Assembly: GCA_030539395.1 (NCBI GenBank)
Contig: JAUNSC010000004.1
Location: 6,361-70,360 of the forward strand
Origin: Eubacteriales bacterium
GTDB taxonomy: Bacteria > Bacillota > Clostridia > Lachnospirales > Lachnospiraceae
Length of the DNA stretch: 64,000 nucleotides
Reading direction: 5' to 3'
The notes beneath the pieces are model-generated. The model was not told the DNA's origin. It made no database searches and saw only the letters and a list, made by a program, of their open reading frames with translations. Below are positions 1,919 to 28,700 of the stretch, piece after piece. The position numbers were made by a program, and so were the translations under genes. Position 1 is the stretch's first letter; every line of letters begins with the position of its first letter.

Positions 1919-2467
1919 ATGCTGCAAATAACACTACCTGTAATCGAGGGGTGGGATGAAGAAAAGGAAGAATTTGTCATACTGGCAAAGGAACAGAAGC
2001 TGACATTAGAGCATTCTCTCGTCTCTCTTTCAAAATGGGAAATGAAATGGCATAAACCTTTTCTGACAAAGGAATCAAAGACCATTGAAGAAACCCTGGA
2101 TTATATCAGATGTATGACACTGACTCAGAATGTAAATCCGGAAGTATATAACCGTATTCAGAACGAGCACATAGATCAGGTGAATAAATATATTGAAGAT
2201 TCGATGACGGCTACGTGGTTTCGTGAAGATGAAAGGGGGACGCGGAATAGAGAGACAATCACAAGCGAAGTTATTTATTACTGGATGATTGCTTTAAATA
2301 TTCCGGTAAATTTTGAAAAGTGGCATTTGAATAGATTGCTGACCCTGATTCGGGTATGCAATGAAAATAACAAACCGAAGAAAAAGAAAACCGGCGGAAG
2401 AGAATTCCTCAGTCGGCGTCGGGCTTTGAATAATGCCCGGAAGAAAAAGTTGAATACGAAAGGATGA
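1919..2467 (+). CDS. Phage tail chaperone / minor tail protein (gpGT position)
   Basis: About 182 residues from ATG 1919, which sits 8 nt behind GGAGG (1906-1910); an upstream in-frame TTG at 1904 overlaps that site and is less likely. The protein has a mixed N-terminal part (ITLPVIEGWDEEKEEFVIL), then a helical segment (YYWMIALNIPVNFEKWHLNR) and a very basic tail (KPKKKKTGG, RRRALNNARKKK). It resembles the second product of the tail chaperone pair in Gram-positive siphophages. Its stop overlaps the region of the next start, so the two are translationally coupled. Confidence 0.55.
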   Translation: MLQITLPVIEGWDEEKEEFVILAKEQKLTLEHSLVSLSKWEMKWHKPFLTKESKTIEETLDYIRCMTLTQNVNPEVYNRIQNEHIDQVNKYIEDSMTATWFREDERGTRNRETITSEVIYYWMIALNIPVNFEKWHLNRLLTLIRVCNENNKPKKKKTGGREFLSRRRALNNARKKKLNTKG

Positions 2468-2472
2468 TGAAT

Positions 2473-3926: not shown

Positions 3927-4304
3927 ATGATCACATTCAGACAAAAGGGTAATTTTTCCAAGACCACACAGTATTTTGAGCGATTGAAAGAGGTTATGAA
4001 GCTTGGGATTCTTGATAAGTATGGAAGGGAAGGAGTGGCTGCCCTTTCGTCTGCGACGCCAGTCGAATCTGGAGTAACAGCCGCATCCTGGTATTATGAA
4101 ATAGAACATTCCAAGGGTTCAGCGACTATAACTTTTTCAAATTCACATGTGAATCAAGGTGTACCGATTGCAATTATTTTACAATACGGGCATGGTACTG
4201 GAACCGGAGGCTGGGTACAGGGACGAGATTATATCAACCCTGCGATCCAGCCTATTTTTGACAAAATTGCAGAGGAAGCATGGAAGGAGGTTACGAGGCT
4301 ATGA
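3927..4304 (+). CDS. HK97 gp10-like tail completion protein
   Basis: A 125-residue protein with the usual gp10-family layout: an N-terminal helix, a central ATPVESGVTAASWYYEI segment, the beta hairpin ATITFSNSHVNQGVPIAIILQYGHGTGTGGWVQG (key residues Q-Y-G-H-G) and a C-terminal helix (INPAIQPIFDKIAEEAW). Members act in head-tail joining or tail completion. The usual place is before the tail tube gene; here it lies between the lysin and the tape measure, an unusual order. Its stop overlaps the tape-measure ATG in an ATGA arrangement. Confidence 0.65.
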   Translation: MITFRQKGNFSKTTQYFERLKEVMKLGILDKYGREGVAALSSATPVESGVTAASWYYEIEHSKGSATITFSNSHVNQGVPIAIILQYGHGTGTGGWVQGRDYINPAIQPIFDKIAEEAWKEVTRL

Positions 4305-7300: not shown

Positions 7301-9847
7301 AATCTTGAAAAACTCGGAAAGATGACATGGGATGAAATCGGAAGAGGTCTTACTGCGATGGGTGGTGCATTAGCGGAATTTTCTATTGCGTTAGGCGCTC
7401 TCAGCAAAATTGGCGGTTTTGGTTCTCTGCTTGGCGGTACAGGAATATTAATCGCTGCGCAATCGCTTGATCCAATCGCTTCTGCCCTTTCAAGCATTAG
7501 CGGATTATCATGGAGCGAGATAGCAAGAGGTCTTACTGGAATGGGAAGCGCCCTCGCTGAATTTGGAATAGTTCTTGGAACGCTTGGAAAAATTGCTGGT
7601 TTCTCCAGTGTATTAGGTGCCGTTTCTGTTTTGATAGCGGCACAGTCACTGGAGCCAATAGGAAACGCTTTGGCAAGCATTGGAAACCTATCATGGGATG
7701 AGATCACCAGAGGTCTTGTCGGAATGGGAGGCGCACTTGCTGAACTGGCAGTTGTCATTGGGGCACTTGGTTCTGTGGCAGGCATTAGCGGTGTTTTAGG
7801 GGGCGGCGCTATTCTGCTCGGTGTACAGGGATTAGGCGATCTTGCGGATGCTTTTAAAAAGTTTGGCGGAATGACATGGGATGAAATTACAACCGGTCTT
7901 GTTGGAATGGGAGGCGCACTTACAGAGGTAAGCGTTATAACCGGACTTCTTGGAAATCTTGGCGGTTTGGGATCGCTGATTGGGGGCGGTTCGATTCTGC
8001 TTGGTGTACAGGGATTAGGCGATCTTGCGGATGCGCTTAAGAAATTCGGTCAGATGAATTGGGACGAGATAGGAACCGGACTTGTTGCTATGGGCGGTGC
8101 TCTCGGAGAGACAGCCCTCGGAGGCTTGTTAAATACTTTTTCAGGCTTTGGAGCCTCGGCAATTGCTGAGATGGCAGAGCCTCTCGGAGCATTAGCAGAT
8201 TCCGTTAAGAAATGGTCTGGAGTTTCTGTTCCGGAAGGGTTATCTACGCAGCTTGGCTCCCTTGCTGATGGAGTGAAGGCATTTAATTTCAGCGGATGGG
8301 GAGCGGATGCTATGGCAGCGATAGCGACACCGCTTGGTAATATGGCGACCTCCATTTCAAAATGGAGCGGTGTTTCTGTACCAGAAAACATTCAAACTGG
8401 TCTGGAAGGACTTGCCGGAGGAGTGAAGGCATTTAATTTCAGCGGATGGGGAGCTGACGCCATGGCGGCTGTTTCTGTTCCGCTTGGCGATATGGCTGGC
8501 GCCCTTGGAAAATGGTCTAATGTGACAGTACCCGAAAATATTCAAACCAGCTTGGAGGGCTTGGCAAGTGGTGTAGGCGCATGGGCTTATATAGATACCT
8601 ATAATATAGGAACAATAACTGAACCGTTAGAAAATCTTGCCGGCGCCGTTGCAACATGGAACAATATTACCATACCGGCAAATATCCAAACAGGCTTGGA
8701 AGGCTTGGCAAATGGTATAAGCGCGTGCAACAATGTCTCAGGAAGCGATTTATCTGGCGTATGCGACGGGATAAGAGCAATCGGAATAGCAGCCACGGAT
8801 ATCTCAACCATTGATTTTAGCGGGATTTCTTCGCAATTGACAAGTTTCGCTTCATCAATCAGCAACATCAATGTCTCAACGAATTCATTCTCAAATCTTG
8901 GATCGACCATTGTTAGTAAGTTTGCAAGTGCTATAAGCAGTGGAACCGGTACAATGTCCAGTGCAGGTGCAAAATTAACAAACGCAGTCGCTTCCGGAAT
9001 GAAGTCTGGGTTGGGGTCTTTGACATCGGTTATTACTTCAATCATAAATTCTGCCAGCACGAATGTCAGAAATAAGAGAAGTAATTTTGTTTCAGCAGGT
9101 ACCTATCTTATTTCGGGTTTGGCCTCCGGTATCAGATCGAATCTGTCGTCGGTTTCTAGTGCTGCTGGTTCGGCAGCTTCTTCCGGTGCAAGTGCTTCAA
9201 GAGGATATTATGGAAGTTTTTACGGTTCGGGTGCATATCTTGTCTCTGGTTTTGCAGCCGGAATTAGAGCTAATATCGGTGCGGCAGCAAGTGCGGCAGC
9301 ATCAATGGCAGCAGCAGCGTCAAGTGCTGCAAGAAGCAACCTTAAAATCAAATCACCGTCAAGAGTATTTTATGAAATCGGCGATTTCACCGGACAGGGC
9401 TTTATTAATGCTCTTTCTGATTATGGGAAAGCATCATACGAAGCTGGAGCCGGCATTGCAGTTTCAGCACGGGAAGGCTTGAGAAAAGCGATTTCCAAAA
9501 CGACAGATATTATTGAAAATGGGATTGATGGTACACCAACAATTCGTCCGGTTCTTGATTTGAGCGCTGTGGAGGCCGGAGCGGGGAAGATTAACGGTAT
9601 TCTCGGAATGGGACGTTCAATCGGAATAACTGACAACATAGGTGCGATTACCACAATGATGAATAATCGTCAAAATGCGGCAAGTAATGATGATGTTATA
9701 TCTGCTATTGGAAAACTGCAAAAAGCACTTGGAAACCGTTCAGGCGATTCATACGTTATCAATGGCGTTACATATGATGACGGAAGCAATGTTGCCAGCG
9801 CTGTGAAATCATTAATCAGAGCAGCAAAAGTAGGAGGGAGGGTGTAA
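4301..9847 (+). CDS. Tail tape measure protein
   Basis: This 1848-residue protein sets tail length and is ejected into the cell at infection. The start is ATG 4301, 10 nt after AAGGAGG (4284-4290); a longer upstream start at 4280 lies before that site. Domains seen: an N-terminal TMP region (FESNVQTSLSTIDKLKQSL) with a Ser/Ala-rich segment, a peptidoglycan-binding type 1 domain at about residues 452-525 (LRKGDAGEDVKRAQEALEKLG, VDGILGSATEEAIKAFQ), hydrophobic Gly-rich segments, seven copies of a 61-residue repeat, a second repeat family (FNFSGWGADAMAA), and a C-terminal Ser/Ala helix region (NLKIKSPSRVFYEIG), the hallmark of the phage tail tape measure family. Strong evidence. Confidence 0.93.
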   Translation: MSKTIDERVVEMRFDNKQFESNVQTSLSTIDKLKQSLNLSGASKGLENVSAAAKNVNMSGLTGAVETVHARFSAFEVMAVTALANITNSAVNAGKQILSALTIEPVKSGFEEYETQINAIQTILANTESKGSTLRDVSQALDELNHYADMTIYNFTEMTRNIGTFTAAGVDLETSVSAIKGIANLAAVSGSTSQQASTAMYQLSQALAAGTVKLQDWNSVVNAGMGGQVFQDALKETARVHDIAIDDMIEKEGSFRETLSKGWLTSEILTETLSKFTGDLSEAQLQSMGYTEEQIASIIKMGQTANDAATKVKTLTQLFDTLKEAAQSGWTKTWELIVGDFDESKELFTGISDALSKFINVSADRRNNLLEGALSNNWDKLISKINEAGIETTDFEEKLKSMVSSHGFDVDKLIEEYGSLEKAFQSGAVSSDILKEAVNGLKSEMIDLNSIQRELRKGDAGEDVKRAQEALEKLGFDIGKTGVDGILGSATEEAIKAFQELNGIEITGIIDENTLNALKEATTTTETLVGNVDEFIDGITELGGREKIIESFKNILKTLGDTVKPVKDAFKEIFPPVTVDQVGNAIDKFHSFTEKLKLSEETADKLKRTFKGAFSILDLFGKGIKALISPIGDFFGSGGVNGIVDAFLGITASIGDFFTSLNEGAGTGAFFSVLSDGISNFFGEIAEVINPAVDGIETFGDVFSYVGTVVSNGAGKIGEGIKSVFTWISDNVSAGDIFAGLAGGGIFVLAKKISGVFDTIREALDKLFKKGESGKIKEQFSDILGSVKDSIAAFTSGIKVASLIGIAAAIGILSVALNSISKLEPGKLTNSLGAIGVMFAMLSLTLKSVTKTLTKFDSKGLIKAGVSLVLIATAVNIFAGALKDLSGMSAADMGKGLVGLGVGLVELSAALKIINNSKISLSTSVAIVALAQGCKMLADALSKFSVLSWDEIARGLTAMGGALAELTASLAVLSKAGGFGSLLGATGMLVAVQSLDEISENLEKLGKMTWDEIGRGLTAMGGALAEFSIALGALSKIGGFGSLLGGTGILIAAQSLDPIASALSSISGLSWSEIARGLTGMGSALAEFGIVLGTLGKIAGFSSVLGAVSVLIAAQSLEPIGNALASIGNLSWDEITRGLVGMGGALAELAVVIGALGSVAGISGVLGGGAILLGVQGLGDLADAFKKFGGMTWDEITTGLVGMGGALTEVSVITGLLGNLGGLGSLIGGGSILLGVQGLGDLADALKKFGQMNWDEIGTGLVAMGGALGETALGGLLNTFSGFGASAIAEMAEPLGALADSVKKWSGVSVPEGLSTQLGSLADGVKAFNFSGWGADAMAAIATPLGNMATSISKWSGVSVPENIQTGLEGLAGGVKAFNFSGWGADAMAAVSVPLGDMAGALGKWSNVTVPENIQTSLEGLASGVGAWAYIDTYNIGTITEPLENLAGAVATWNNITIPANIQTGLEGLANGISACNNVSGSDLSGVCDGIRAIGIAATDISTIDFSGISSQLTSFASSISNINVSTNSFSNLGSTIVSKFASAISSGTGTMSSAGAKLTNAVASGMKSGLGSLTSVITSIINSASTNVRNKRSNFVSAGTYLISGLASGIRSNLSSVSSAAGSAASSGASASRGYYGSFYGSGAYLVSGFAAGIRANIGAAASAAASMAAAASSAARSNLKIKSPSRVFYEIGDFTGQGFINALSDYGKASYEAGAGIAVSAREGLRKAISKTTDIIENGIDGTPTIRPVLDLSAVEAGAGKINGILGMGRSIGITDNIGAITTMMNNRQNAASNDDVISAIGKLQKALGNRSGDSYVINGVTYDDGSNVASAVKSLIRAAKVGGRV
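6959..8150 (+). repeat. Seven 183-bp (61-residue) tandem repeats inside the tape measure gene
   Basis: Copies begin at motifs of the type SWDEIxRGLxxMGGALAE, which fall at protein residues 947, 1008, 1069, 1130, 1191 and 1252, exactly 61 apart, with a more degenerate first copy near residue 886. Each unit has an amphipathic helix, a GFGSLLGG-type hydrophobic turn and a second helix. Unit number in tape measure proteins is expected to scale tail length. Confidence 0.85.
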
Positions 9848-15207: not shown

Positions 15208-16032
15208 ATGAGTAAACTTACTGACTACTCGGCGGTTGCAAGATTTGACAGCGGAGATATTTTAATCAAAGATGGTACGAACGGTACAAAGAAGATTACG
15301 GTTCAGAAAGCAGCAATAGAATTTGCCGGGCTTGTATCGGTACAGAACCATCGGAATATTTGGGGCGGAAGAAATCTCGGAAGCTCTGTGAGCGCAGAAC
15401 AGAGAGCAGCTATTCAGGCTGGAACTTTTGATAATCTGTTTGTCGGGGATTATTGGGTAATTAACGGTATCACATGGCGGATCTGGGATATGGATTATTT
15501 TTACAGATGCGGCGATACAGATTTTACAACCCATCATCTGGTAGTTGTTCCGGATTCAGCTCTGTACAATCACGTTATGAATGATACCAATACAACGGGA
15601 GGCGCTTATGTTGGATCGAAAATGTATACGGAAGGATTGGAACAGGCAAAGACCGCTTTCAAGGCTGCTTTTGGTGATATGGTTCTTACGCATCGTGAAT
15701 ACCTGACCAATGCAGTTACAAATGGTTATCCGTCTGCCGGTGCATGGTTTGATTCGGAAGTTGAACTGATGAATGAAATCATGGTGTATGGTTGCCATGT
15801 TTATGCTCCAATGGGGAATGGTTCAACGATCCCTAATAGGTATACTATGGGAAAGCAGCAGTTTGCGGCGGCAATGTTAAATCCTTCTATTGTCAATCGT
15901 AGATTTACATACTGGTTAAGAGATGTCGTGTCTTCGGCTTACTTCGCCCGTGTGTTCTACTTTGGCAATGCGGACTACTACGTCGCTTCGGACTCTTTTG
16001 GGGTTCGTCCGTATTCCGTGATTGGTGGTTAG
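15208..16032 (+). CDS. DGR target protein: variable phage receptor-binding protein
   Basis: 274 residues, start ATG 15208 behind GGGAGG. The N-terminal 45 residues look like a tail-attachment region, then comes a beta-rich domain (GDYWVINGITWRIWDMDYFYR, HHLVVVPDSALYNHVM) of the kind seen in clostridial prophage surface proteins. The last 36 codons contain the variable repeat, encoding SSAYFARVFYFGNADYYVAS and a constant GVRP turn, as in C-type-lectin-fold DGR targets. Ten residues of this segment differ from those coded by the template repeat, all at AAY codons. The gene ends 21 nt after the VR. It probably sits at the tail tip and binds the bacterial surface; the lectin fold is inferred, not seen. 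Confidence 0.9.
   Translation: MSKLTDYSAVARFDSGDILIKDGTNGTKKITVQKAAIEFAGLVSVQNHRNIWGGRNLGSSVSAEQRAAIQAGTFDNLFVGDYWVINGITWRIWDMDYFYRCGDTDFTTHHLVVVPDSALYNHVMNDTNTTGGAYVGSKMYTEGLEQAKTAFKAAFGDMVLTHREYLTNAVTNGYPSAGAWFDSEVELMNEIMVYGCHVYAPMGNGSTIPNRYTMGKQQFAAAMLNPSIVNRRFTYWLRDVVSSAYFARVFYFGNADYYVASDSFGVRPYSVIGG
15927..16011 (+). repeat. DGR variable repeat (VR), 85 bp
   Basis: Matches the 85-bp template repeat at 17091-17175 without gaps. There are 15 mismatches, and at all 15 the template has A (to T, G or C here); 8 template adenines are unchanged. Homology stops sharply at 16011, where template and VR flanks begin to differ (G to T, then T to C, C to G), as expected around the mutagenic-homing initiation site. 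It lies in frame in the last codons of the target gene. Confidence 0.96.
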
Positions 16033-16069
16033 GGAAATTAAGGGGCCTTGTGCCCCGTTTCAAATTTCC
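16032..16069 (+). other. Hairpin just after VR (candidate DGR homing structure)
   Basis: An inner stem GGGGC (16042-16046) / GCCCC (16052-16056) with a 5-nt loop is nested in an outer stem GGGAAATT (16032-16039) / AATTTCC (16063-16069). It starts 20 nt after the VR. DGRs of phage BPP-1 need a DNA hairpin or cruciform at this place for target recognition. A transcription terminator is the alternative, but no T run follows. Confidence 0.6.
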
Positions 16070-16126
16070 GTACACAGGTGACAACCGCTTTTGGTATAAA
16101 GAATAAAACAAACAGGAGATTTCAAA

Positions 16127-16435
16127 ATGGAAAATAAAATTTACAGTATCACACTTTCGGATGGAAGTGTTATCGAAAATTTAAAGCTTAATGGAAATAA
16201 TTTCATTTCAGAGGTTCCGGTTTCTTCGGAATCGTTTGCGGACAACTGTTCTCCGGTGATCATCAGCGATGGCGAAACAGAAGAAGTCCATGCGAATATG
16301 GAACTGGTTCAGATTACAGAAATGGGCGATCAGTATTGGTTTGTTCTCCGGGATATTTCTGAAGCTGAAATGGAAAAAATCAAGATGCAGTCAGATATCG
16401 AATATATTGCGATGATGGCTGGCGTAGAACTTTAA
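16127..16435 (+). CDS. Small phage protein between DGR target and XkdX
   Basis: 102 residues behind an AGGAG site. It is acidic and beta-rich at the start (KIYSITLSDGSVIENLKLNG) with a C-terminal helix (DISEAEMEKIKMQSDIEYIAMM). No catalytic motif is visible and no family is recognised with confidence. Similar small genes sit after the last fibre gene in Lachnospiraceae prophages. Its place between the diversified gene and the DGR machinery makes an accessory tail or chaperone role possible, but this is a guess. Confidence 0.6.
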   Translation: MENKIYSITLSDGSVIENLKLNGNNFISEVPVSSESFADNCSPVIISDGETEEVHANMELVQITEMGDQYWFVLRDISEAEMEKIKMQSDIEYIAMMAGVEL

Positions 16436-16454
16436 GAAAAGGGGGAATACCGTG

Positions 16455-16592
16455 ATGCATAGTGAAAAGTTTGAAAAGGTAAAGCGTTTTTATATGCTGA
16501 AAGTATGGAATGAAATTCGCGTCCGTAACGCTGTAAAGATGAGCTGGATTACTGAAGAAGAGTTTACAGAAATTACAGGAAAGGAATTCTGA
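16455..16592 (+). CDS. XkdX-family small phage protein
   Basis: A 45-codon gene, ATG 16455 (or GTG 16452) behind GGGGGAA. The product has the XkdX pattern: FEKVKRFYMLKVWNEIRVRN, then a short bridge, then WITEEEFTEITGKEF. XkdX proteins are about 45-50 residues long and lie at the end of tail-fibre modules in Gram-positive phages; function unknown. The TGA overlaps the next gene's ATG (TGATG at 16590-16594), so it is coupled to avd. Confidence 0.8.
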   Translation: MHSEKFEKVKRFYMLKVWNEIRVRNAVKMSWITEEEFTEITGKEF

Positions 16593-17077
16593 TGAGCGTA
16601 CTTGCGGCTAAGCGAAAAGAATCGAAAAACGAGGCAATCACTTTTTCAGTAGAGCTGCACAATATGTTGATAGAACTCATGCAGCGAAGCTTCGGGATAA
16701 AGGACGTTGATCAGGTCGTTAGAATTCGTTATGCATATGGCATGGATCCTGTAGAGGACTTTGCAAAATATCGTTATTTGATGACGGAATCTAAAACGCA
16801 GATTAACCATATCGCTACATTACTGACGTGTAATCTGAGGGCGGCGAAATCTTTGTATCCTACTTCCATGCATGAATATGAAAAGAGACGAGATTACCAG
16901 AATGCCGGAATTGTAAATTGCAACCAGCTTATCGATCAATTACAGCATGTCGTAGAAGTTTTTAACGTTGACTTGAATGTCTACGGCAGATATATCAAAG
17001 CTATCGACCGAGAAATCGAGTTGATAAAGAAATGGCGTCAAAGAGACAACAAAATCAAATCGTATGTTTCAGGGTAA
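16592..17077 (+). CDS. avd: Avd: DGR accessory variability protein
   Basis: 161 residues, overlapping the XkdX stop. The protein is almost wholly helical, basic and lacks catalytic motifs (ELHNMLIELMQRSFGIKD, SKTQINHIATLLTCNLRAAK, CNQLIDQLQHVVEVFNVDLNVYGRY). This agrees with the four-helix Avd barrel that binds the DGR reverse transcriptase and template RNA and is needed for mutagenic homing. It lies directly before the template repeat and reverse transcriptase, the standard order. Somewhat longer than the BPP-1 protein. Identification is by context plus helical pattern. Confidence 0.82.
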   Translation: MSVLAAKRKESKNEAITFSVELHNMLIELMQRSFGIKDVDQVVRIRYAYGMDPVEDFAKYRYLMTESKTQINHIATLLTCNLRAAKSLYPTSMHEYEKRRDYQNAGIVNCNQLIDQLQHVVEVFNVDLNVYGRYIKAIDREIELIKKWRQRDNKIKSYVSG

Positions 17078-17090
17078 CGTCTGATTAATG

Positions 17091-17175
17091 CGTGTCTTCG
17101 GCTAACTTCGCCAATGTGAACAACAATGGCAATGCGAACTACAACAACGCTTCGAACTCTAATGGGGTTCGTCCG
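17091..17175 (+). repeat. DGR template repeat (TR), 85 bp, in the avd-RT spacer RNA
   Basis: An 85-bp copy of the VR holding 23 adenines, most in eleven AAC/AAT codons. AAY codons can be mutated at both adenines without creating a stop. The spacer between avd and the RT (17078-17285) should be transcribed as the template RNA; downstream flanking sequence 17176-17285 probably folds with the RT and Avd, as in other DGRs. No protein gene is evident in the spacer. Confidence 0.95.
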
Positions 17176-17285
17176 GATTCTCTGCCTAACCAACAGGGAA
17201 GGAGATGTTATCCGTTCCACCAAGGATAAATGACAAAGCCGGACGCAATTTACTACGGTAAATATTGCTATCACGGTGAATAATT

Positions 17286-18503
17286 ATGACATACGAGGAG
17301 ATTCTCTGCGACGCCAATAATCTTTATACGGCCTACAAAGCCTCTGTAAAAGGCAGTAAATGGAAAGAATCCACACAGAAATTTATGTTGAATTTTCTGA
17401 GGTATATTTTCGAGATCCAAGATGATTTGATCAACCGAACCCTCAAAAATGGTCCGATTGATGAATTCGAACTGCATGAGCGGGGGCGTATCAGGCCGAT
17501 CACAAGTATTGCGGTAAAAGACCGTATCATTCGCCATGCTCTTTGCGATGAATTATTACTTCCAGCAGTCAAAAATAAAATCATATATGATAATTGTGCT
17601 TCTATAAAAGGCCGTGGCATGTCCATGCAGAGAAAACGCTTCGAAGTACATCTCAGAAAATATTATCGTCTCTATGGAAATGACGGTTATATTTTGTTTG
17701 GTGATTTCACGAAGTTTTATGACAATATCATACATGAAATTGCAAAACGGGAATTATTGGAGCTATTTGATGATGACGAATTTATTGATTGGCTTCTTAC
17801 CCTTATATTTGATGGATTTAAAATAGACGTTTCATATATGACAGATGAAGAATATGAATCCTGTATGGGTGATGTATTCAACAAATTGGACTATCGACAG
17901 ATTCCGAAGGAGAAGTTGACTGGCGAAAAGTTCATGCGAAAGTCTGTGAATATTGGCGATCAGTTATCTCAGGTAATTGGTATATATTATCCATATCGTA
18001 TTGACAATTACGTGAAATATGTACGAAGTCAAAAATTTTACGGGCGTTATATGGATGATTGGTATATCATGAATCCATCGAAAGAAGAGTTGATTGATTT
18101 ATTGGAAAATATAAAAGCGATTGCGAAGGGGCTTGGTATTCATATTAATGAAAAGAAAACGCGGATTGTCAAGATCAGTGGTACATACAAATTTCTTCAG
18201 ATTAAGTACACGCTTACTGGCTCGGGAAAAATTATCAAACGAATCAATCCAAAGCGTGTAACAACAATGAGAAGGAAATTGAAAAAACTTGCCGTTAAGG
18301 TGGAAAACGGTGAAATCCCATATGAGAACGTTGAGGGGATGTTTCGCGGTTGGATGGGAGACTTCTATAAATTATTGTCAAAGCAGCAAAGGAAAAATTT
18401 AATAACACTTTATGAAGACCTATTTAATAAGGTAATCACTGTAGTCAATAAAAAGCTGGTTATAAACGATAGGTCACCACAAGAAATATTACAGGAGGTA
18501 TGA
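17286..18503 (+). CDS. DGR reverse transcriptase
   Basis: 405 residues, ATG 17286, with a weak ribosome site. Motifs follow in order: motif 2 RPITSIAVKDRIIRHAL, motif 2a SIKGRGMSMQRKRFEVHL, motif A YILFGDFTKFYDNI, motif B NIGDQLSQVIG, motif C YGRYMDDWYIM with the catalytic YMDD, and motif D HINEKKTRIVK. The IGDQLSQ motif marks DGR enzymes; group II intron RTs have a different residue pattern and maturase and endonuclease domains, which are absent. The enzyme copies the template RNA with errors opposite adenine. The stop overlaps the next gene. Confidence 0.95.
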   Translation: MTYEEILCDANNLYTAYKASVKGSKWKESTQKFMLNFLRYIFEIQDDLINRTLKNGPIDEFELHERGRIRPITSIAVKDRIIRHALCDELLLPAVKNKIIYDNCASIKGRGMSMQRKRFEVHLRKYYRLYGNDGYILFGDFTKFYDNIIHEIAKRELLELFDDDEFIDWLLTLIFDGFKIDVSYMTDEEYESCMGDVFNKLDYRQIPKEKLTGEKFMRKSVNIGDQLSQVIGIYYPYRIDNYVKYVRSQKFYGRYMDDWYIMNPSKEELIDLLENIKAIAKGLGIHINEKKTRIVKISGTYKFLQIKYTLTGSGKIIKRINPKRVTTMRRKLKKLAVKVENGEIPYENVEGMFRGWMGDFYKLLSKQQRKNLITLYEDLFNKVITVVNKKLVINDRSPQEILQEV

Positions 18504-18505
18504 TG

Positions 18506-18844
18506 ATGGAACCGTGGTTTCAGATATTACTTACCGTTTTCAGCTCAGTTCTTGCGTCTTCTGGGCTGTGGGCCTATATAACGAAGCGGCTTGAGAAAAA
18601 AGATGTGAAATCAGAAATGCTTGTAGGGCTCGCACATGACAGAATCATGTATCTTGGGATGTCATACATTGAGAGAGGGTATATCACCTACGATGAATAT
18701 GAAAATCTCTATGAGTATCTCTATAAACCCTATAAAAAAATGGGTGGCAATGGATCAGCAAAGCATGTGATGGGTGAGGTAAATAAACTGCCAATTCACA
18801 AATCAAAGTATGAGGAGGAACATAACCATGAATATGACAAATAA
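18506..18844 (+). CDS. Membrane-anchored phage protein upstream of holin
   Basis: 113 residues from ATG 18506, which is 7 nt after AGGAGG (18493-18498); ATGs at 18500 and 18503 are in the same frame. One N-terminal membrane helix (FQILLTVFSSVLASSGLWAYI) is followed by a charged cytoplasmic part with a His/Glu-rich end. Genes of this kind are placed just before holins in clostridial prophages; a holin-like or holin-regulating role is plausible. It overlaps the holin start by 17 nt. Confidence 0.6.
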   Translation: MEPWFQILLTVFSSVLASSGLWAYITKRLEKKDVKSEMLVGLAHDRIMYLGMSYIERGYITYDEYENLYEYLYKPYKKMGGNGSAKHVMGEVNKLPIHKSKYEEEHNHEYDK

Positions 18845-19046
18845 AACATACGACATTCTTAAATGGATTGCAATGTATCTGCTTCCGGCTTTGGGGACTT
18901 TATATTTCGCTTTAGCTGGCATATGGGGATTCCCTTACGGAGAGCAGGTTGTCGGGACGATTACGGCAATCGACACATTCCTTGGAGTTATTCTTGGAAT
19001 CAGTACGACGCAATATAATAAAGTCGAAAAATCCAATACAAAATAA
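18828..19046 (+). CDS. Phage holin
   Basis: 72 residues from ATG 18828, behind GAGGAGG (18811-18817). Two membrane helices are visible (WIAMYLLPALGTLYFALAGIWG and GTITAIDTFLGVILGIS) with short charged ends, as in the small two-helix phage holin families of Firmicutes that permeabilise the membrane at lysis. The nearest lysin in this window is the CHAP protein far upstream, so the pair is split. Confidence 0.8.
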   Translation: MNMTNKTYDILKWIAMYLLPALGTLYFALAGIWGFPYGEQVVGTITAIDTFLGVILGISTTQYNKVEKSNTK

Positions 19047-19101: not shown

Positions 19102-19207
19102 GATAGTACGCTTTAAAAACATCTTCTCTTCGTTTTTGCCGATTCTTTTCCGTATCCAGGTTACGACCGAAAAAGATATGATGATATTTGAAATGGAGGT
19201 GATTTGG

Positions 19208-19390
19208 ATGCAGGAAAAACTTTTACTTTCAATAACAGAAGCGTCTCGTTTATTCGGAATTGGACAAAACAGATTACGCGAGATTGTCCGTGATGATTAT
19301 GATGGAGTATATCATTTGACTGTCGGCCGCGTGATCAAGATAAAACGCAAACCATTTGAAGAATATATAAACAAAGTGCAAGAGATATAA
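19208..19390 (+). CDS. xis: Excisionase (Tn916 Xis-like)
   Basis: 60 residues from ATG 19208, 5 nt after GGAGGTGAT (19195-19203); a longer open frame upstream has no such site. It has the winged-helix Xis pattern of Tn916-type elements: LLSITEASRLFGIGQNRLRE, then a short loop, then RVIKIKRKPFEEYINKVQEI. Xis bends DNA at the att sites and steers the integrase to excision. It lies 77 nt before int, the normal order. The presence of both genes suggests excision is still possible, although the left end is outside the window. Confidence 0.85.
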   Translation: MQEKLLLSITEASRLFGIGQNRLREIVRDDYDGVYHLTVGRVIKIKRKPFEEYINKVQEI

Positions 19391-19467: not shown

Positions 19468-20703
19468 ATGGCAAACAAGACGGCTAGTAATAAAAATAAA
19501 CCATCAAGAAAAACATTACGGGCAAACGAATTCTACAATCCGAAGACAAAACGGTATGAGTATCGTTATAAGGATGTATTCGGAAAAAACCGTGTTGTGA
19601 GTTCTTATAAATTAGAACCCACAGACCAGGTTCCAAAGGGAAAAAAATCTGGTCAGAGTTTACGAGAAAAGGAAGCAGAGATAAATGCTCTTCTTGTAAA
19701 CAATATTGATATAGACGGCGCAAAACTGACATTGCTTGAGGTGGTTGAGAGATATCTTGAACATCTATATAACCGGAAAGATTTAAGCCATAATACCAAA
19801 ACTGGATATAATGTGACAGTGAATACACTGAAGCAGTATAAACTCGGTTACATGGAAATAGGAAAGATTAAACCGGAGCATTGCGAAGAATGGCTTGCAG
19901 ATATGAAGAAAAAGTATCGCGGCTCATCTATACAAAGCCAAATCAGTTTAATTAAGCGCACGTTTGAGTATGCTATTGATTATGATTATATCGCTAAAAA
20001 TCCGTTTAGGAGAATCACAACGGACAGAAGAGATAGCAAACCTATGGAGGCTATTCCAGTTGATGAGATGAATAGATTCCTTGATTTCTGCCAGGCGGAT
20101 TCCCACAGTAAGCATTGCTATGAGATGATATACATTTTGTTCTGGACTGGATTGAGGGTATCTGAACTATGCGGATTGACAATAGATAACATAGATATGG
20201 AGAACCATCTGATTAAGGTGGAAAAACAGTTACAGTGTCTTAATCATAAGCATGTTGTCATGAAGCCCAAAACATCTAATGGCGTGCGGTATGTTCCGAT
20301 GACGGATGGGGTTTACGAATGCTTTGAAGCAGTCCTAAGGAACAGATATTTAAAAGGCGATATTGAACCCGTGTGCTATGATGAACGGGGAAATTCGTAT
20401 GAAGGATTTGTATTCCTTGCCACCAGAAGCCGGAAAACCATAGTGAGAGCGCATGTTGAGGAATATCTGCAAAATTGTATTAAGCGATACAATCTGGCAA
20501 ACCCTTCAGATCCAATCCGCAAGTTTGAGCCGCATATATGTAGGCATACGTTTGCAACGAATATGCAGGGGCTTCCGCTGAAAACATTACAGTCTATTTT
20601 GGGACATGGCAATGTAAGAACAACAATGAATCACTATGTGGATGTGAAACCTGCTGAAAGCCAATTGGCAGAAATCAACGCAGTAGCAAGCTCAATCAGC
20701 TAA
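19468..20703 (+). CDS. int: Tyrosine recombinase integrase (Tn916/phage type)
   Basis: 411 residues, ATG 19468 behind GGAGGG. The N-terminal part is an AP2-like arm-binding domain (NEFYNPKTKRYEYRYKDVFG), then a SAM-like core-binding domain (about 85-170), then the catalytic domain with Arg in LFWTGLRVSELCGL, Lys in VVMKPKTSNG, the His-Arg box HICRHTFATNM, the second His in LGHGNVRTT and the nucleophile Tyr in MNHYVDV. All catalytic residues are present. It inserts the prophage and marks its right end; the attachment site should be within about 150 nt downstream. Confidence 0.92.
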   Translation: MANKTASNKNKPSRKTLRANEFYNPKTKRYEYRYKDVFGKNRVVSSYKLEPTDQVPKGKKSGQSLREKEAEINALLVNNIDIDGAKLTLLEVVERYLEHLYNRKDLSHNTKTGYNVTVNTLKQYKLGYMEIGKIKPEHCEEWLADMKKKYRGSSIQSQISLIKRTFEYAIDYDYIAKNPFRRITTDRRDSKPMEAIPVDEMNRFLDFCQADSHSKHCYEMIYILFWTGLRVSELCGLTIDNIDMENHLIKVEKQLQCLNHKHVVMKPKTSNGVRYVPMTDGVYECFEAVLRNRYLKGDIEPVCYDERGNSYEGFVFLATRSRKTIVRAHVEEYLQNCIKRYNLANPSDPIRKFEPHICRHTFATNMQGLPLKTLQSILGHGNVRTTMNHYVDVKPAESQLAEINAVASSIS

Positions 20704-20740
20704 TTCGTAAAAATATATCCATGCGAATTATTTACGAATT
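20702..20740. repeat. Inverted repeat at the prophage right end (candidate Int site / attR zone)
   Basis: AATTCGTAAA (20702-20711) and TTTACGAATT (20731-20740) are a perfect 10-bp inverted repeat starting inside the int stop. This and the following AT-rich stretch to hisH (20741-20857) are where attR should lie. The core cannot be fixed because the left end is not in the window. Confidence 0.45.
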
Positions 20741-20857
20741 ATGTTGTCGAATGAGATGTAATGAAATATGATGAAACGTAACGAAACAGACGTAATATAT
20801 TTAAAAGGAATTGTTATAAATTCACAAAAAGCGCCTGTTTGTGGGAGGTATGGACAT

Positions 20858-22946: not shown

Positions 22947-24578
22947 GTGAGAAAAGTTTTTGACAAACTGCTGCTGTTTCTGGTGGCTGCCGGATGTGCA
23001 GCATTGACTATATTTGTGGGACAGAATTCACTGGATACAACAATATACAATCTGGCTTTTCTGGCAGTGATGGTCATATTATGTATCGCCGGTATGATAG
23101 CCGGACACGGAAAAATGAGCAGCCTTGAGCAGGCGCTTGGCCGGGCAGGTGATGATATTGAAAATACATTTGACGGTATTGATGCTGCAGAAGGAGAAAC
23201 GCCCGCACTTCCGGAGAACCTTTTTAATCAGGAAGAACTGGATGAACGATATGGGGAATTTACGAATTTTATTAAAAAGAGCCAGAGCGGAATCGGTGAT
23301 ATAGAGGACTATATCAATTCAGGAGAAGTGGATGGTATCATCCGTAAACGTCTTCTTGAACTGATACCGGATGTTCTTACGAGCCTTGGTATTTTGGGCA
23401 CATTCATTGGTCTTGTGTTTGGCCTTAAGAATTTTGAACCTTCCAACTATGAAGCGATGACAGCGTCTGTATCTTCCCTTGTGAATGGTATCAAGGTAGC
23501 GTTTTTAACATCAATTTATGGTCTTTCTCTTTCACTGGTATTTGCATATGGAACAAAAACTGCATATGGCGACCTGATGGAAAGTCTCAGACAGTTTTTG
23601 GATAAATTCCATCGTTATGTGATCCCTTCTGCGGAAGCGGAAGCCAGAAATATCATGGTAAATTATCAGGAAACACAGACGGCTGCTATTGAGAAAATGA
23701 CGGAACAGTTTTCTGAACATCTTGCAACAAGTTTTGAGAGAGTCATTACGCCTTCTTTCCGTAAAATGAATCAGTCTATGGATATATTGACGGAGACCAT
23801 GGCCAAGGGCCAGGAGGAAATGATGCAGGGCCTTCTGGATGATTTTCTCGTAAAAATGCGCTCATCCTTTCAGCTTCAGTTTAACAATTTCAATCAGGCT
23901 CTGGAAGAGATGACTGCTGCTCAGATCGATATGACGGAAAAGACGAAAAGTCTGTATAATGATATGGCAGAAGAACTGCACAAATCATTTGAGCGCGAAG
24001 ATACCAGTATGCGGTCAGCCGTTCGTGAAATGGGAGCTATGCATAAGGAATACCTTACCAGCACCCAGCAGACAGTAGATACGTATCAGAAATATTCAGA
24101 AGGACTGGAGCAAAATTACCGTCAGGTTGTGGACTATCTGCAGGATGCACAGCAGAGTTCGGCAAAGTTCTGGGTTGCCTGCAATCAGGCTATGCAAAGA
24201 TATGTCAGTGCCGCAAGTGCCGGCGTAGAGGGGTTTGCTGCTGCCAGCCAGCATAACAGCAATCTCTATGAGGCAAACGAGCGTCTGGTGGAAAGCTACA
24301 ACCAGCGCATGCAGGAGTTTGTACAATATCAGAAGCTGACAGCCCAGACGATGGAGCAGGTTCAGAACCTGCTTTACAATATTGTGACCTCCCCGGATGA
24401 GACGCACAGAACCAATATCCGTAAGATGGCAGTCAATAACAGCAACCGCGATATGCTGATGCAGATACAGAAAACACTGGAGGAGCAGGGAGCCCGTCAG
24501 GAGGAACTTCTTGAGACGATGGTTTCCTATATGAAAGAAGAGAGCAGAAGCAAGAAGAGCAGAGGATTTTTCCGATAA
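22947..24578 (+). CDS. ZorA/MotA-like proton-channel protein with long coiled-coil tail
   Basis: 543 residues, GTG start behind AAGGGGGAA. Four membrane helices fit the MotA/TolQ/ExbB layout: about residues 8-25, 33-52, 140-162 (VLTSLGILGTFIGLVFGL) and 182-204 (GIKVAFLTSIYGLSLSLVF). Beyond them is a 330-residue helical cytoplasmic tail, as in ZorA of Zorya defence, not as in flagellar MotA. It forms a pair with the following OmpA/MotB-like gene 20 nt away. No ZorC, ZorD or ZorE gene is beside them and no flagellar genes either. A stator of unknown use, possibly defence or cell-envelope work. The fold is fairly sure; the job is not. Confidence 0.72.
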   Translation: MRKVFDKLLLFLVAAGCAALTIFVGQNSLDTTIYNLAFLAVMVILCIAGMIAGHGKMSSLEQALGRAGDDIENTFDGIDAAEGETPALPENLFNQEELDERYGEFTNFIKKSQSGIGDIEDYINSGEVDGIIRKRLLELIPDVLTSLGILGTFIGLVFGLKNFEPSNYEAMTASVSSLVNGIKVAFLTSIYGLSLSLVFAYGTKTAYGDLMESLRQFLDKFHRYVIPSAEAEARNIMVNYQETQTAAIEKMTEQFSEHLATSFERVITPSFRKMNQSMDILTETMAKGQEEMMQGLLDDFLVKMRSSFQLQFNNFNQALEEMTAAQIDMTEKTKSLYNDMAEELHKSFEREDTSMRSAVREMGAMHKEYLTSTQQTVDTYQKYSEGLEQNYRQVVDYLQDAQQSSAKFWVACNQAMQRYVSAASAGVEGFAAASQHNSNLYEANERLVESYNQRMQEFVQYQKLTAQTMEQVQNLLYNIVTSPDETHRTNIRKMAVNNSNRDMLMQIQKTLEEQGARQEELLETMVSYMKEESRSKKSRGFFR

Positions 24579-24598
24579 GTTTTTTCAGGAGAGAAGAT

Positions 24599-25561
24599 AT
24601 GCGTAAACATAGAGAAAAAGAGAACAGTGACTTTAATGTCTGGCGTTCTTATTCAGACATGATGGCAGGTGTATTGCTTTTGTTCGTGCTTATCATGTGT
24701 GTGACATTGTTTCAATCGCAGATTAATTATGAACAGAGCATTAAAGAGCGGGATGAGAAGCTTTTTCTGCAGGAAGAATATACAAAAGAGATTATGAGCC
24801 AGAAAAATATTGTAGAAAACCAGCAGAATCAGCTGTCAGCTCAGGATGAGCAGCTGGCAACACAGGATGAACTGCTGGCTGCCCAGAAGAAGCAGCTGGA
24901 CGAACTGGCAGCAAAACTGGCAGCACAGCAGGAGAAGCTGGATGCCCAGAGTGTCACACTGGCCAGTCAGCAAAGCGCGCTGGATGAAAAGACGACTCAG
25001 CTGGCAGACCAGCAGGCAAGAATCGATAAGATCATTGGCGTAAAAGCCGATGTAATAGAAGCGCTGAGGCAGGAATTTGCCAATAATAATGTAAATGTGG
25101 CAATTGATGCATCTAACGGATCTCTTGTGATGGATTCCAGTGTATTGTTTGCCTATGATGAAACGGAGCTTACAGAAGAAGGACAGATGGTTCTGGGAAC
25201 GGTACTTCCGACCTATTGCAATGTATTGCTTCAGGAAGAATATTTCCCTTACGTAGCAGAAATTATCATTGACGGATACACGGACAGCAGCGGCGGATAT
25301 GAGTATAATCTGGAACTTTCCCAGAGACGATCCCTTGCCGTTGCGGAATATCTGTTAAATCTTTCCCAGAGCTTTTTGAGCGGGGAAAATCAGGAAAGCC
25401 TGCGAAATAAGCTGACAGTAAACGGTCATTCGAGCAGCAATCCGATTCTTGATGAGGATGGAAACGAAGATGCGGATGCATCCAGGCGGGTGGAAGTGAA
25501 ATTCCGATTGAAGGATGAAGAAATGATAGAAGAACTCAGGTCAATACTTGACAGTGATTAA
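24599..25561 (+). CDS. ZorB/MotB-like stator protein with OmpA peptidoglycan-binding domain
   Basis: 320 residues. The N-terminal membrane helix follows a conserved Asp (WRSYSDMMAGVLLLFVLIM, Asp20), the proton-carrying position in MotB and ZorB. Residues 50-145 are a Gln/Leu-rich coiled coil built on repeats such as LAAQQEKLDAQ. Residues about 165-310 are the OmpA-like wall-binding domain (IDGYTDSSGGYEYNLELSQR, ASRRVEVKFRLK). Partner of the upstream MotA/ZorA-like protein; together they should form a membrane motor anchored to the wall. The long periplasm-side coiled coil is unusual for a ZorB. Confidence 0.75.
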   Translation: MRKHREKENSDFNVWRSYSDMMAGVLLLFVLIMCVTLFQSQINYEQSIKERDEKLFLQEEYTKEIMSQKNIVENQQNQLSAQDEQLATQDELLAAQKKQLDELAAKLAAQQEKLDAQSVTLASQQSALDEKTTQLADQQARIDKIIGVKADVIEALRQEFANNNVNVAIDASNGSLVMDSSVLFAYDETELTEEGQMVLGTVLPTYCNVLLQEEYFPYVAEIIIDGYTDSSGGYEYNLELSQRRSLAVAEYLLNLSQSFLSGENQESLRNKLTVNGHSSSNPILDEDGNEDADASRRVEVKFRLKDEEMIEELRSILDSD

Positions 25562-25582
25562 TGAATATCTTGAACCAGACAG

Positions 25583-25618
25583 GGCAGGTAATTATTTTAC
25601 CTGCCTCTTATTTAAGTT
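25583..25618 (+). terminator. Terminator after the ZorAB-like pair
   Basis: A perfect 9-bp stem GGCAGGTAA (25583-25591) / TTACCTGCC (25597-25605) with a 5-nt loop is followed by a T-rich run. Confidence 0.85.
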
Positions 25619-25639
25619 TTATTTTTATTCACTAAACAA

Positions 25640-25668
25640 TTGAAATAATTCCCATATCTTGTTAAAAT
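25640..25668 (+). promoter_or_regulatory. Sigma-A promoter of the giant Rhs gene
   Basis: TTGAAA (25640-25645), a 17-nt spacer, then TAAAAT (25663-25668), 50 nt before the AGAGGG ribosome site of the Rhs gene. Near-consensus spacing in an AT-rich gap. Confidence 0.7.
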
Positions 25669-25720
25669 AGAATAAAAAATATTTAAATATTAATAAAAAT
25701 AATAAGAGGGTATGGGAAAA

Positions 25721-28700
25721 ATGAACAAAACGAGAAAAAGATTATTAAGCGCCGGGATGGCACTGCTCCTTGCCATCCAGCCGTGCCTGCTGACAGCAGC
25801 GCAGACAGAGGAACAGACGGTAACAGAAACTGAAGAATTCACCCTGCGCTCCAACGTGGACGGAACAAAGACGGTCACCTTCCATGCCCAGCTGGAAGGG
25901 TCATCGGGGGAGGAGGGGAATTCGACCGGAGCGGCAGGCAGCAGGAAATCCCCGTCACCCGAAGTATGGATGGAGGCGGCAGAGGGGCCGGAGCTTTCGG
26001 CGGAAGGGGAAGAGTCGCAGACAGAAACGGCCCCGCAGCTTGAGATGGAGGTTTCCGGGACCGGGGAAGACGCAGAGGTCACCATGGAGTACGGCGGCAC
26101 AGGGCTGGTCTTTACCCCCGAAATCTTTGAGGCGGAGCAGGAGACGGCTGCTCCCGCGCAGGATGGGGAGGAGGCGGTCCCGGAGACAGCCGGGACCGCG
26201 GCAGTGCAGACGGAGGTCCATCTGGCGGCTGCGGAAGGAGATGCAGAGACCCGGGCAGCAGAAGAATGCCCACAGCCGGCAGGAGCGGCCCCGCAGCCGC
26301 CGCAGGAAAACACGCAGCCGGAAGAAGCTGCTCCGGCGGAGACGGCGCAGGAGACCGGCGCTCCGGATGCGGAAGAGACACAGGGACAGGAGCAGGCCCC
26401 CGAAACAGGGCAGCCGGAAACAGAGGCCGGGCAGATGACAGAAGGCCCATCCGACAGCTGGGACACCGAAGGGGAGGAGACTGCAGCTGAGACCGGAGAG
26501 GGAACAGATACAGAACCGGCAACCGCTGCGGGGCCAGAAGCTGCCGCTGATACGGAAACCGCTGCGGACACAGAACCGGAAACGGTTTCAGATACAGAAT
26601 CAGAAACTGGCACGGAATCAGAAACGGACACGGAACCGGAAACGGAAACGGAAGGGCCTGCCCCGGAAATCCCGGATTCCGAGATCCGGTACCGGGAGCT
26701 GGAAAACGGAATTAAGGAAGAAATGGTGATGTACGGATACCGAAAGGAGCGCAGGGTGGAATACCGGTTCTCCCTTGACGGCTTGTCCCCGGTGCGGGAA
26801 GGGAACGCCTTTAAGCTTGTGAACGGGGAGGGAGAGGCTCTTTTTACCATTGATGCACCGTACATGTACGATGCGGCGGGAAGGCAGAGCCGGGACATCA
26901 CCGTTGCGATGGAACATCTGGGCGGGAGTGATTACCTCCTGTCCTATGTACCGGATGATGGGTGGCTGGCGGATGAGGGACGCACCTGGCCGGTGGTGCT
27001 GGATCCCACCATAACGATCACAGGCACCTTAAAGATCGAAGACAATTACGTGGGAGACGCAGGTCAGGCGGGCAACAACTTTGATTACGGGAAATCCACC
27101 CTGCTGGCAGGGAACAAAGGCGGGATAAACTATACCGCCTTCATCCGCCCCGCGCTGCCGGAAAGCCTGAAAAATATCGCATCAAAGGTAATCATCCAGA
27201 GCGCCAGCGTACGGCTCAATGCAGGCACGGTGGAAGGGGAGGACACGGCCTACGGCCTGTACCTGGTGAAGGGAAGCTGGACCAGCCAGAGTATCACGGG
27301 GAAAAACCAGCCGGACCTTTCCGCAGCTCCATATGTGGATGTGTCCTTCAAAAAAGGCTGGAACACCGTTGACATCAAGAGCATCGTGTCGGAGTGGTTC
27401 AACTGCCTTGCCCAGAAGGAGAACTGTGGTTTTGCCATAAAGGCCGAAAAGAAAAGGAACAATTATGTAAGTATTTATTCCTCCGATTCCGCGGCGAGTA
27501 AGGATGTGGAATTCTCCATTACCTATAAGGAGATCCCTGAAAGCACGGATGCCGGGATCCGGGCAAAGGTATACGGAAATGCGGCAAACAGCGGGACGGG
27601 GTATGTGGAACTTTCCTGGAACCGGGTGGCCGGAGCGGAAGGCTATTATGTAGGCATCTTTGACGGGAAAGACTATGAGTATTTTCTGGTCGGGAACGTA
27701 ACGAAATATACCACAAAAGGGAAGGGCATCTGGCCCACGGCGGAAGAGATCAGAAAAGGCAGATACCGGCTCCACGGAGACGGGACTGGGGCGGAGCTGC
27801 CATGCATCCCTGCGGATTCCTATGGAAACGTGGAGAACGGGACCCACGGGAAGGATCTGAAATACTACTTCTGCGTCGTCCCATGCAACGAATACGGGCA
27901 GGCCATCGACCCGGGAACCTTCGATTCTGTCAGTGCAGTGCTGCCGGACCGCATCTCTCCGTCCCAGGCGGCGGCAGTGACGGTCATTCCTTCCACTGCA
28001 ACCAATAAGGCTGCGGTAAAGGTGGGATGGAATGGAATACGGGATTTTAATACCACCTCCGCGTCCATCACAAACGGAGTCGGGAAAGGGAAGATTCAGT
28101 TCAGCGTGGACGGGACATCCAACTGGAAAGACACAGACCAGAACGGGGCGTCGGGGAGTTATACGGTGGATGTCTCCGGTCTTGAGGACGGCACCCATAC
28201 CATATATATCCGCGGAAAGGACGGAGAGGGAAATACCGGGGCTGCAAAAGGAACATATCTTTATATAGACCGGACCGGGCCCCAGGGGCAGACGGTATCC
28301 GTGGAGCCGAAAGGCTGGAGTGCGGTGAAAAAAGGAATCCTGTCCTGGAGCGGGATGTGGGATCTGTACGGGATAGGGAAGATTGAGTATGCTTTCGATA
28401 ACGGTCCCTGGAAGGATACCGGAAAGCAGGCGGAGGCGTATGCCGGGCTTCCACTGGACTTTTCAGGGCTCTCCGACGGCATCCATACCCTTTCCCTGCG
28501 GGGGACGGACACCGTGGGGAACACGGGAAAGGCATCCTCGGCAAAGGTAAGGATGGACCGGACAGCGCCGGAAGCAGGAAGCATCCGCCTGGAACCGGAA
28601 GGCTGGAGCGCCGGAGACACCTTCCTGCTGAAGTGGGAGGGCATTTCGGATGCCGCCAGCGGGATCGGGCGGATCGAGTACGCACTGGACGGCAAGTGGG

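Follow-up and report, generated by a model that had tools for sequence, protein, structure and literature searches.

The diversity-generating retroelement (DGR) of Bordetella phage BPP-1 runs in the order target gene with its variable repeat (VR), avd, template repeat (TR), and reverse transcriptase (RT), and shares with the element described below its adenine-only changes, its RT motifs, and a target of the C-type lectin fold. Two DUF6273 targets per TR, as well as distal second VRs in gut prophages, are already known. In passages of PMC12629997, a second VR is located distally from the RT in four gut prophage species, near counter-defence genes, e.g., a DNA methyltransferase. A C. clostridioforme prophage harbors Avd and RT, no repeats being mentioned in the passages concerned (PMC11318856), and a large metagenome survey states that its own method would not detect remote targets (PMC8144416). 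Here, a DGR is described in a 64,000-nucleotide stretch ("the window"; positions 6,361 to 70,360 of contig JAUNSC010000004.1, called C34 below) from a Eubacteriales bacterium of the Lachnospiraceae (GCA_030539395.1). Taking its parts, its two targets, their single prophage, a BPP-1-like mechanism, and the roles of the targets as one explanation, this DGR of the avd-TR-RT type very probably diversifies both a tail target, through VR1, and an early DUF6273 protein, through VR2, of one prophage of ~60 kb. New here are the second VR, with which an early-module gene of the DUF6273 type terminates, the C-type lectin fold of the tail target, and the loss of adenines from the templates of some relatives.

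TR and VR1 align without gaps over 85 nt, at an offset of 1164, and all of their 15 mismatches fall on the 23 adenines of TR (10 A>T, 4 A>G, and 1 A>C). The hypergeometric chance of 15/15 mismatches falling on 23 of 85 sites is 2.7e-11, and a chance origin of the pattern is ruled out at this level (~3e-11). In the frame of the target, TR displays 11 AAY codons and one TAC. Ten of the 11 AAY codons are changed in VR1, the unchanged one being the AAT at 15967; because codons ending in Y cannot become stops, adenine changes in VR1 cannot truncate the target protein. An earlier reading of the window, made from the sequence only, had claimed both the gapless alignment with mismatches at template adenines and the stop-proof codons: the former is exact to the base, and a codon count bears out the latter. 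The 3' block shared by TR and VR1, GGGGTTCGTCCG, resembles the initiation of mutagenic homing of BPP-1, and may play the same role.

The genome was searched with a TR pattern in which adenines were left free and up to 3 mismatches were allowed, the reversed pattern serving as a control. Three matches are found (TR, VR1, and C31:26568-26648, on a second contig), against none for the control. The match on C31 has no mismatch at any fixed TR position. Over 83 nt, this second repeat, VR2, differs from TR at 18 positions, all 18 at adenines (11 A>G and 7 A>T), so that the hallmark of a DGR, a TR and a VR with differences (almost) confined to the adenines of the template, is found twice (15/15 and 18/18). 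VR2 codes for the C-terminus of the early target, in the same reading register as VR1. The early target belongs to DUF6273 (PF19789, E 3e-9) and to phrog_21980 (E 8e-91), and its profile aligns with that of the tail target over the lectin core and the VR with an hhalign probability of 98.7%. A relationship of its N-terminal arm to the DNA polymerase of the phage, considered from a YCxxDVxxT motif seen by eye, was rejected, the best BLASTP match having an E-value of 2.2.

C31 begins with host genes, recognized by eye from the open reading frames, followed by phage genes coding for DUF6353 proteins, a DNA polymerase/primase (phrog_4210), a helicase, and an N6-methyltransferase. At the start of C34 are genes for terminase and portal, along with a frame that weakly matches a prohead protease. 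In L092, the nearest sister locus and a metagenome-assembled genome (MAG), C31:20037-45658 and then C34:47-29278 align collinearly with a single 325-kb contig, with ~7 kb between them, a gap estimated from this sister only. Furthermore, a 19-bp direct repeat, CGAATTATTTACGAATTAT, has exactly two copies in the genome, at C31:20134 and C34:27084. C31 and C34 are assigned to one prophage because of this attachment (att) pair and of the collinear sister contig. The occurrence of VR2 on a separate assembly contig from the RT could also mean that it is part of a different mobile element on C31, served in trans; this is highly improbable, and was rejected, since the sister contig (C24) is collinear with both C31 and C34, and the att core is present only at the two outer ends. 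In the single prophage, 6.4 kb separate VR2 from the left end, and 2.2 kb separate the RT from the right end. By coordinate arithmetic, they stand ~50 kb apart in the lysogen and ~9 kb apart in the circular phage: since RT and integrase share one end and VR2 is close to the opposite one, circularization should bring VR2 to within ~9 kb of the RT. RT and early target are also found at opposite ends of the contigs of L002, L010, and L030, and the early target is located downstream of the RT at ~9.5 kb in L024 and L026, and nearer in L027 and L048.

Features of the retroelement and of its prophage (window positions, unless a contig or locus is named)
Feature	Position	Strand	Evidence or remark
Tail target gene, 274 aa, C-type lectin domain, VR1 at its end	15208..16032	+	Open reading frame open
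Variable repeat VR1	15927..16011	+	Ungapped TR alignment
Shared TR/VR 3' end, GGGGTTCGTCCG	16000..16011	+	TR/VR1 identity stops at 16011
Post-VR hairpin, core GGGGC-CTTGT-GCCCC at 16042-16056, with outer arms	16033..16069	.	Identical core after VR2
Tail-module gene (102 aa) lying between target and avd, without family match	16127..16435	+	Present in 84/92 related loci
XkdX (PF09693), overlapping avd start	16455..16592	+	E 1.6e-16
avd (accessory variability determinant)	16592..17077	+	phrog_3206 'Avd protein of DGR', E 4e-5; in 84/92 related loci
Template repeat TR, 23 A, 11 AAY codons	17091..17175	+	Ungapped VR1 alignment
Spacer RNA with a conserved fold, between TR and RT	17176..17285	+	Compensatory pairs
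DGR reverse transcriptase, 405 aa, IGDQLSQ and YMDD	17286..18503	+	PF00078, E 6e-16; phrog_1423, E 2e-62
phrog_4105 protein after RT	18500..18844	+	Homolog in 69/92 related loci
Holin, Dp-1 type (PF16938)	18828..19046	+	Family match
Tn916-Xis-like excisionase	19205..19390	+	Family match
Tyrosine integrase	19468..20703	+	Family match
Right attachment core, 19 bp	20724..20742 (C34:27084)	+	Only other exact genome copy at C31:20134-20152
Early target, 288 aa, VR2 at C-terminus	C31:25803-26669 (L114:17804-18670)		Between two DUF6353 genes, small open reading frame between

RTs of the DGR type carry the motifs IGxxxSQ and YxDD. The window RT belongs to them by its own two motifs, its phrog_1423 match, and its alignment to 8ub7_A, the best PDB match (E 1.3e-8; IGSLTSQ and YMDD aligned), which we take to be the BPP-1 enzyme. 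It is the one RVT_1 match at E ≤ 0.001 in the 3.37-Mb genome. Group II intron, retron, or defence-associated (DRT) RTs were considered and rejected, their six NCBIfam matches being all far under the cut-offs (54 of 300 bits for group II). Avd adjoins TR and RT, as in DGRs; phrog_3206 (E 4e-5) is the sole family recognizing it, with no match in Pfam or NCBIfam. The tail target displays a C-type lectin fold, a fold expected, as is the Ig fold, of DGR targets, and, among structures, it is matched best by a bacterial IgA peptidase, in the N-terminal part of the latter. It has no Pfam match of its own; among 46 homologs, 12 match DUF6273 and 43 match phrog_21980. PDB sequence searches with the profiles of the two targets returned no match at E ≤ 1.

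The hairpin core follows both VR1 and VR2, and none follows TR. In relatives, its stem varies (GGGGC/GCCCC or CCGCCC/GGGCGG) and the loop CTTGT is retained; over the whole family, post-VR hairpins mostly possess a core stem of 5-6 bp and a CTTGT, CTCGT, or CCTGT loop. They depart from the BPP-1-type consensus in the passages of PMC3240598 (a GC stem of 7-10 bp and a GRNA tetraloop), and the window hairpin may nevertheless work like that of BPP-1. The spacer is structured: four of its five helices vary, three with compensatory changes. Such changes are found in 8/27 pairs, and 98.9% of cells are paired, as compared to 35-56% when the structure is slid, although the structure used for these counts was derived from the same alignment. 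The window spacer fits the family fold; Rfam, at gathering scores, returned no family. The reading frames of Avd and RT are open, as had been claimed, and a complete DGR in the tail module of a prophage is supported, with Avd, RT, spacer RNA, and post-VR hairpin all there.

Ninety-two related RT loci were taken in. Their named hosts are mostly Lachnospiraceae and relatives, and an RT match at E ≤ 1e-60 occurs in 12 of the 397 genomes searched in the host's own bacterial family, the host's genome included. By tblastn, 82 of the 92 loci contain the target, 84 contain avd, and 84 the 102-aa gene, the loci without them including cut contigs. The TR/VR1 tally covers 81 of 93 loci (the 92 and the window), i.e., 72 distinct pairs; L009, L044, L047, L050, L052, L066, L077, L079, L082, L090, L091, and L093 fall outside it, having no RT 5' end/TR stretch or no VR. 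No non-adenine mismatch is observed in 49 of the 72 pairs. Differences affect 1,034/1,628 adenine sites and 72/4,627 other sites, and the VR letters facing TR adenines are A (594), G (507), T (300), and C (227). This tally applies to relatives the refutation named in the sequence-only reading, VR variation at non-adenine positions; 44 of the 72 non-adenine differences come from four loci with a TR stripped of most adenines. In this tally, windows were trimmed to the repeat, and flank extensions with non-adenine mismatches were dropped (e.g., in L002, L003, L014, L042, L053, L085, L092, and the window); L048 was counted by its tail VR and not by its higher-scoring early VR, and L061 and L083 over 63 nt only, due to an indel.

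A search of 43 genomes or records (L056 being outside the 43) revealed early targets in 25, of which 21 possess a VR matching their own TR, a match being defined by at most 4 non-adenine mismatches. At the level of loci, 26/30 early targets have such a VR, and 18/25 distinct early VRs are free of non-adenine mismatches. Several VR scans favor adenine mismatches when picking the match ends; in the one early-VR scan that does not, 12 of 18 mismatches are at A in L120 and 15 of 20 in L146, over 96 nt into the flank. L121 was tallied over 59 nt. Two early targets, each with its VR, occur in the genomes or records of L092, L002, L048, and L080. Virus contigs L153, L155, and L156 also harbor two early DUF6273-type targets each, and one of those of L156 adjoins a gene that resembles a methyltransferase by eye.

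Activity was approached with 27 chosen close pairs, compared at the VR and over 600 bases upstream. L075 and L076 are identical in RT, Avd, TR, and the 600 upstream bases, and their VRs differ at 15/25 adenine sites versus 0/64 others. Likewise, L034/L036 (upstream 0/600) differ at 18/19 versus 0/65 sites, L068/L069 (0/600) at 18/21 versus 3/67, and L005/L058 (1/600) at 18/25 versus 1/64. The window and L092 share an identical TR over 85 nt, and VR1 differs at 14/23 adenine sites versus 0/62 others, with 113/600 differences upstream. Apart from six pairs with at most one VR difference (see below), other compared pairs differ upstream of the VR as well. Past activity of the DGR in the related family is well supported by the four sister pairs with 0-1 upstream differences. 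The DGR had earlier been called apparently active: this holds for the family, and is a prediction for the window strain today. The element could have been silenced recently, its VRs having been written in the past and the RT, or its expression, being now off. L092 seems to be in such a state, with an RT shorter by ~360 nt (L092:8001-8828; a single 278-aa frame without IGDQLSQ and YMDD) and all three VRs diversified despite it, and in the passages of PMC11792537 some Faecalibacterium phage DGRs display no variation in reads. Silencing is nonetheless improbable in the window, where RT, Avd, and TR, with all 11 AAY codons, are intact, the spacer matches the family fold, and TR is identical to that of L092, in spite of 113/600 differences between the two targets upstream of the VR.

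Several points weigh against a working element with two targets in one prophage, among them the single sister behind the ~7-kb gap and the shared alignment behind the spacer counts. No early target was found in 18/43 genomes or records, many of the records being fragments, and 4 of the 25 with an early target (L128, L135, L136, and L141) have no VR matching their own TR. The model of the early target (L151) is poor (pLDDT 60.5), its fold membership coming from DUF6273, and, with a threshold of E ≤ 0.001, Foldseek matched nothing to the tail target. The helix that connects spacer and TR lacks covariation support because it never varies. In six pairs with 0/600 upstream differences, the VRs are identical or one site apart (L002/L053, L017/L018, L017/L046, L038/L041, L023/L024, and L048/L049), perhaps representing one phage sampled twice. 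Finally, an RT deprived of ~360 nt and of both motifs in L092 implies that the element may be dispensable.

By analogy with BPP-1, TR RNA would fold with Avd and RT, the complementary DNA (cDNA) would start at the TR 3' end, errors would be made at adenines, and the cDNA would replace the VR at the 3' block beside the hairpin. VR1 would then alter what the virion binds, be it a host receptor or another glycan or protein. The least certain steps concern VR2, which would alter the binding face of a small early protein that, inside the infected cell, most likely encounters factors of the host or of rival phages. Host-range switching via the tail target, proposed in the sequence-only reading, is plausible given the tail operon and the C-type lectin fold. 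C-type lectin folds bind many ligands, and this, together with the IgA peptidase match, would suit a tail target diversified for a non-receptor ligand such as mucus, food glycans, or particles. Such a use is rather unlikely, as the target directly precedes the 102-aa gene and XkdX in the tail operon, a usual place of receptor-binding genes. Moreover, tail tropism cannot by itself account for this DGR, given its second, non-tail target, found in the lysogen at a distance of ~50 kb. The related loci make it a repeated case, in which one template serves, besides the tail target, one or two non-structural targets of the early module that come near the RT on circularization, and the question of why a phage diversifies a second protein becomes testable in cultured gut strains.

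Among 47 distinct TRs, four are heavily eroded, with 6 (L021), 10 (L022), 7 (L035), and 3 (L088) adenines left in the repeat, and their TR/VR differences lie mostly away from TR adenines. The TRs of L035 and L034 differ at 12 positions, each involving A, with avd (0/480) and spacer (0/105) identical; those of L022 and L024 differ at 14 positions, all involving A, with identical spacers and 40/480 differences in avd. In the 43 less eroded distinct TRs, the last AAT codon is off consensus in ten, or in nine, since one of them, L067, is probably an alignment shift. In [Ruminococcus] torques ATCC 27756 (L062), the TR 3' end lacks three adenines that L013 has; VR1 disagrees with the new TR letters and so looks older, whereas an early VR from that genome (L123) carries these letters and would accordingly be younger, as though TR had remained in use as a template after being rewritten. 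In 21 close pairs, 25/30 TR differences involve A, 11 of the 25 coming from one pair. We consider it just short of an even chance that the DGR homes into its own TR, 3' end first, so that adenines are lost for good, the template drifts, and the element burns out, while one TR meanwhile diversifies a binding protein of the virion along with one or two of the small early proteins, and thereby couples binding outside with encounters inside the cell. A swap of the 3' block made in the laboratory in BPP-1 reportedly bears on such rewriting. Rewriting by the element fits the 3' bias because the cDNA starts at the TR 3' end (PMC12875486). No mention of TR self-rewriting, under the phrases searched, was found in the DGR literature covered, PMC12875486 included, which does not prove novelty.

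Assembly chimaeras, or ordinary gene conversion from the VR, which would leave the same letters in TR, are an appreciable though not the favored source of these adenine losses. The heavily eroded TRs come from one MAG and three IMG contigs, presumably metagenomes by their numbers. Both in favor of this source and against rewriting, adenine columns of the 43 less eroded TRs change no more than the others (7.7% vs 7.0%), and only 4 of the 8 TR differences of the close pair L027/L074 involve A; TR adenines are hence kept in the long term, and eroded templates would be dead ends. On the other side, partial TR changes are seen as well in records whose titles name strains (L062, and L061, strain 526-35), they are commonest at the TR 3' end, where the cDNA starts, and flanks can be identical, as in L034/L035. 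If real, eroded templates would show how well TR is protected from its own machinery and how DGRs die; together with the repeated tail-plus-early layout and the closeness on the circular genome, they are worth following.

Other genes surround the cassette. The tail module includes an endolysin-like gene (2464-3915; phrog_5182, weak CHAP and SH3 matches) and a tape measure protein of 1855 aa with an internal peptidoglycan-binding domain (4280-9847); by eye, no endolysin stands between holin and integrase. A 618-aa frame at L094:3698-5554 combines a weak PF04586 prohead protease match, below cut-off, with a major capsid protein recognized by eye. Beside the prophage, 22947-36751 codes for a ZorA-like MotA/ExbB protein (PADLOC E 5e-26), a ZorB-like OmpA protein (E 2e-66), and, after the latter, an RHS-repeat protein of 3679 aa.

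Among known systems, Acutalibacter phage Fontainebleau (ON453893.1) possesses homologs of the target (41%) and of the RT (40%), which are near each other among tail and holin genes; compared by these two genes, it is a more distant relative. The nd4/nd12 tentaclin DGRs also serve two DUF6273/C-type lectin targets from one TR, but both targets lie inside the DGR cassette, and in one of them the VR stands close to the 5' end and precedes Ig-like domains, according to the passages of PMC10743442. Faecalibacterium phage Lelie and prophage CP11 have two VRs under one TR, a large and a small target, and both targets of DUF6273 with the VR at the C-terminus (PMC11792537); they belong to other phage lineages, and the Lelie RT is 26% identical to that of the window. 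The prophages of PMC12629997 share the distal second VR, and the N6-methyltransferase of the window prophage stands ~10 kb from VR2; those prophages span four species, whereas the window family displays up to two early DUF6273 targets and mostly Lachnospiraceae hosts. BPP-1 shares the hairpin after the VR (PMC3240598) and the spacer between TR and RT, with the cDNA start (PMC12875486). The window element differs from it by its 5-nt CTTGT hairpin loop, instead of the 4-nt GRNA of PMC3240598, by XkdX and the 102-aa gene between VR and avd, by an RT of 405 aa versus 328 aa for 8ub7_A, and by its two targets.

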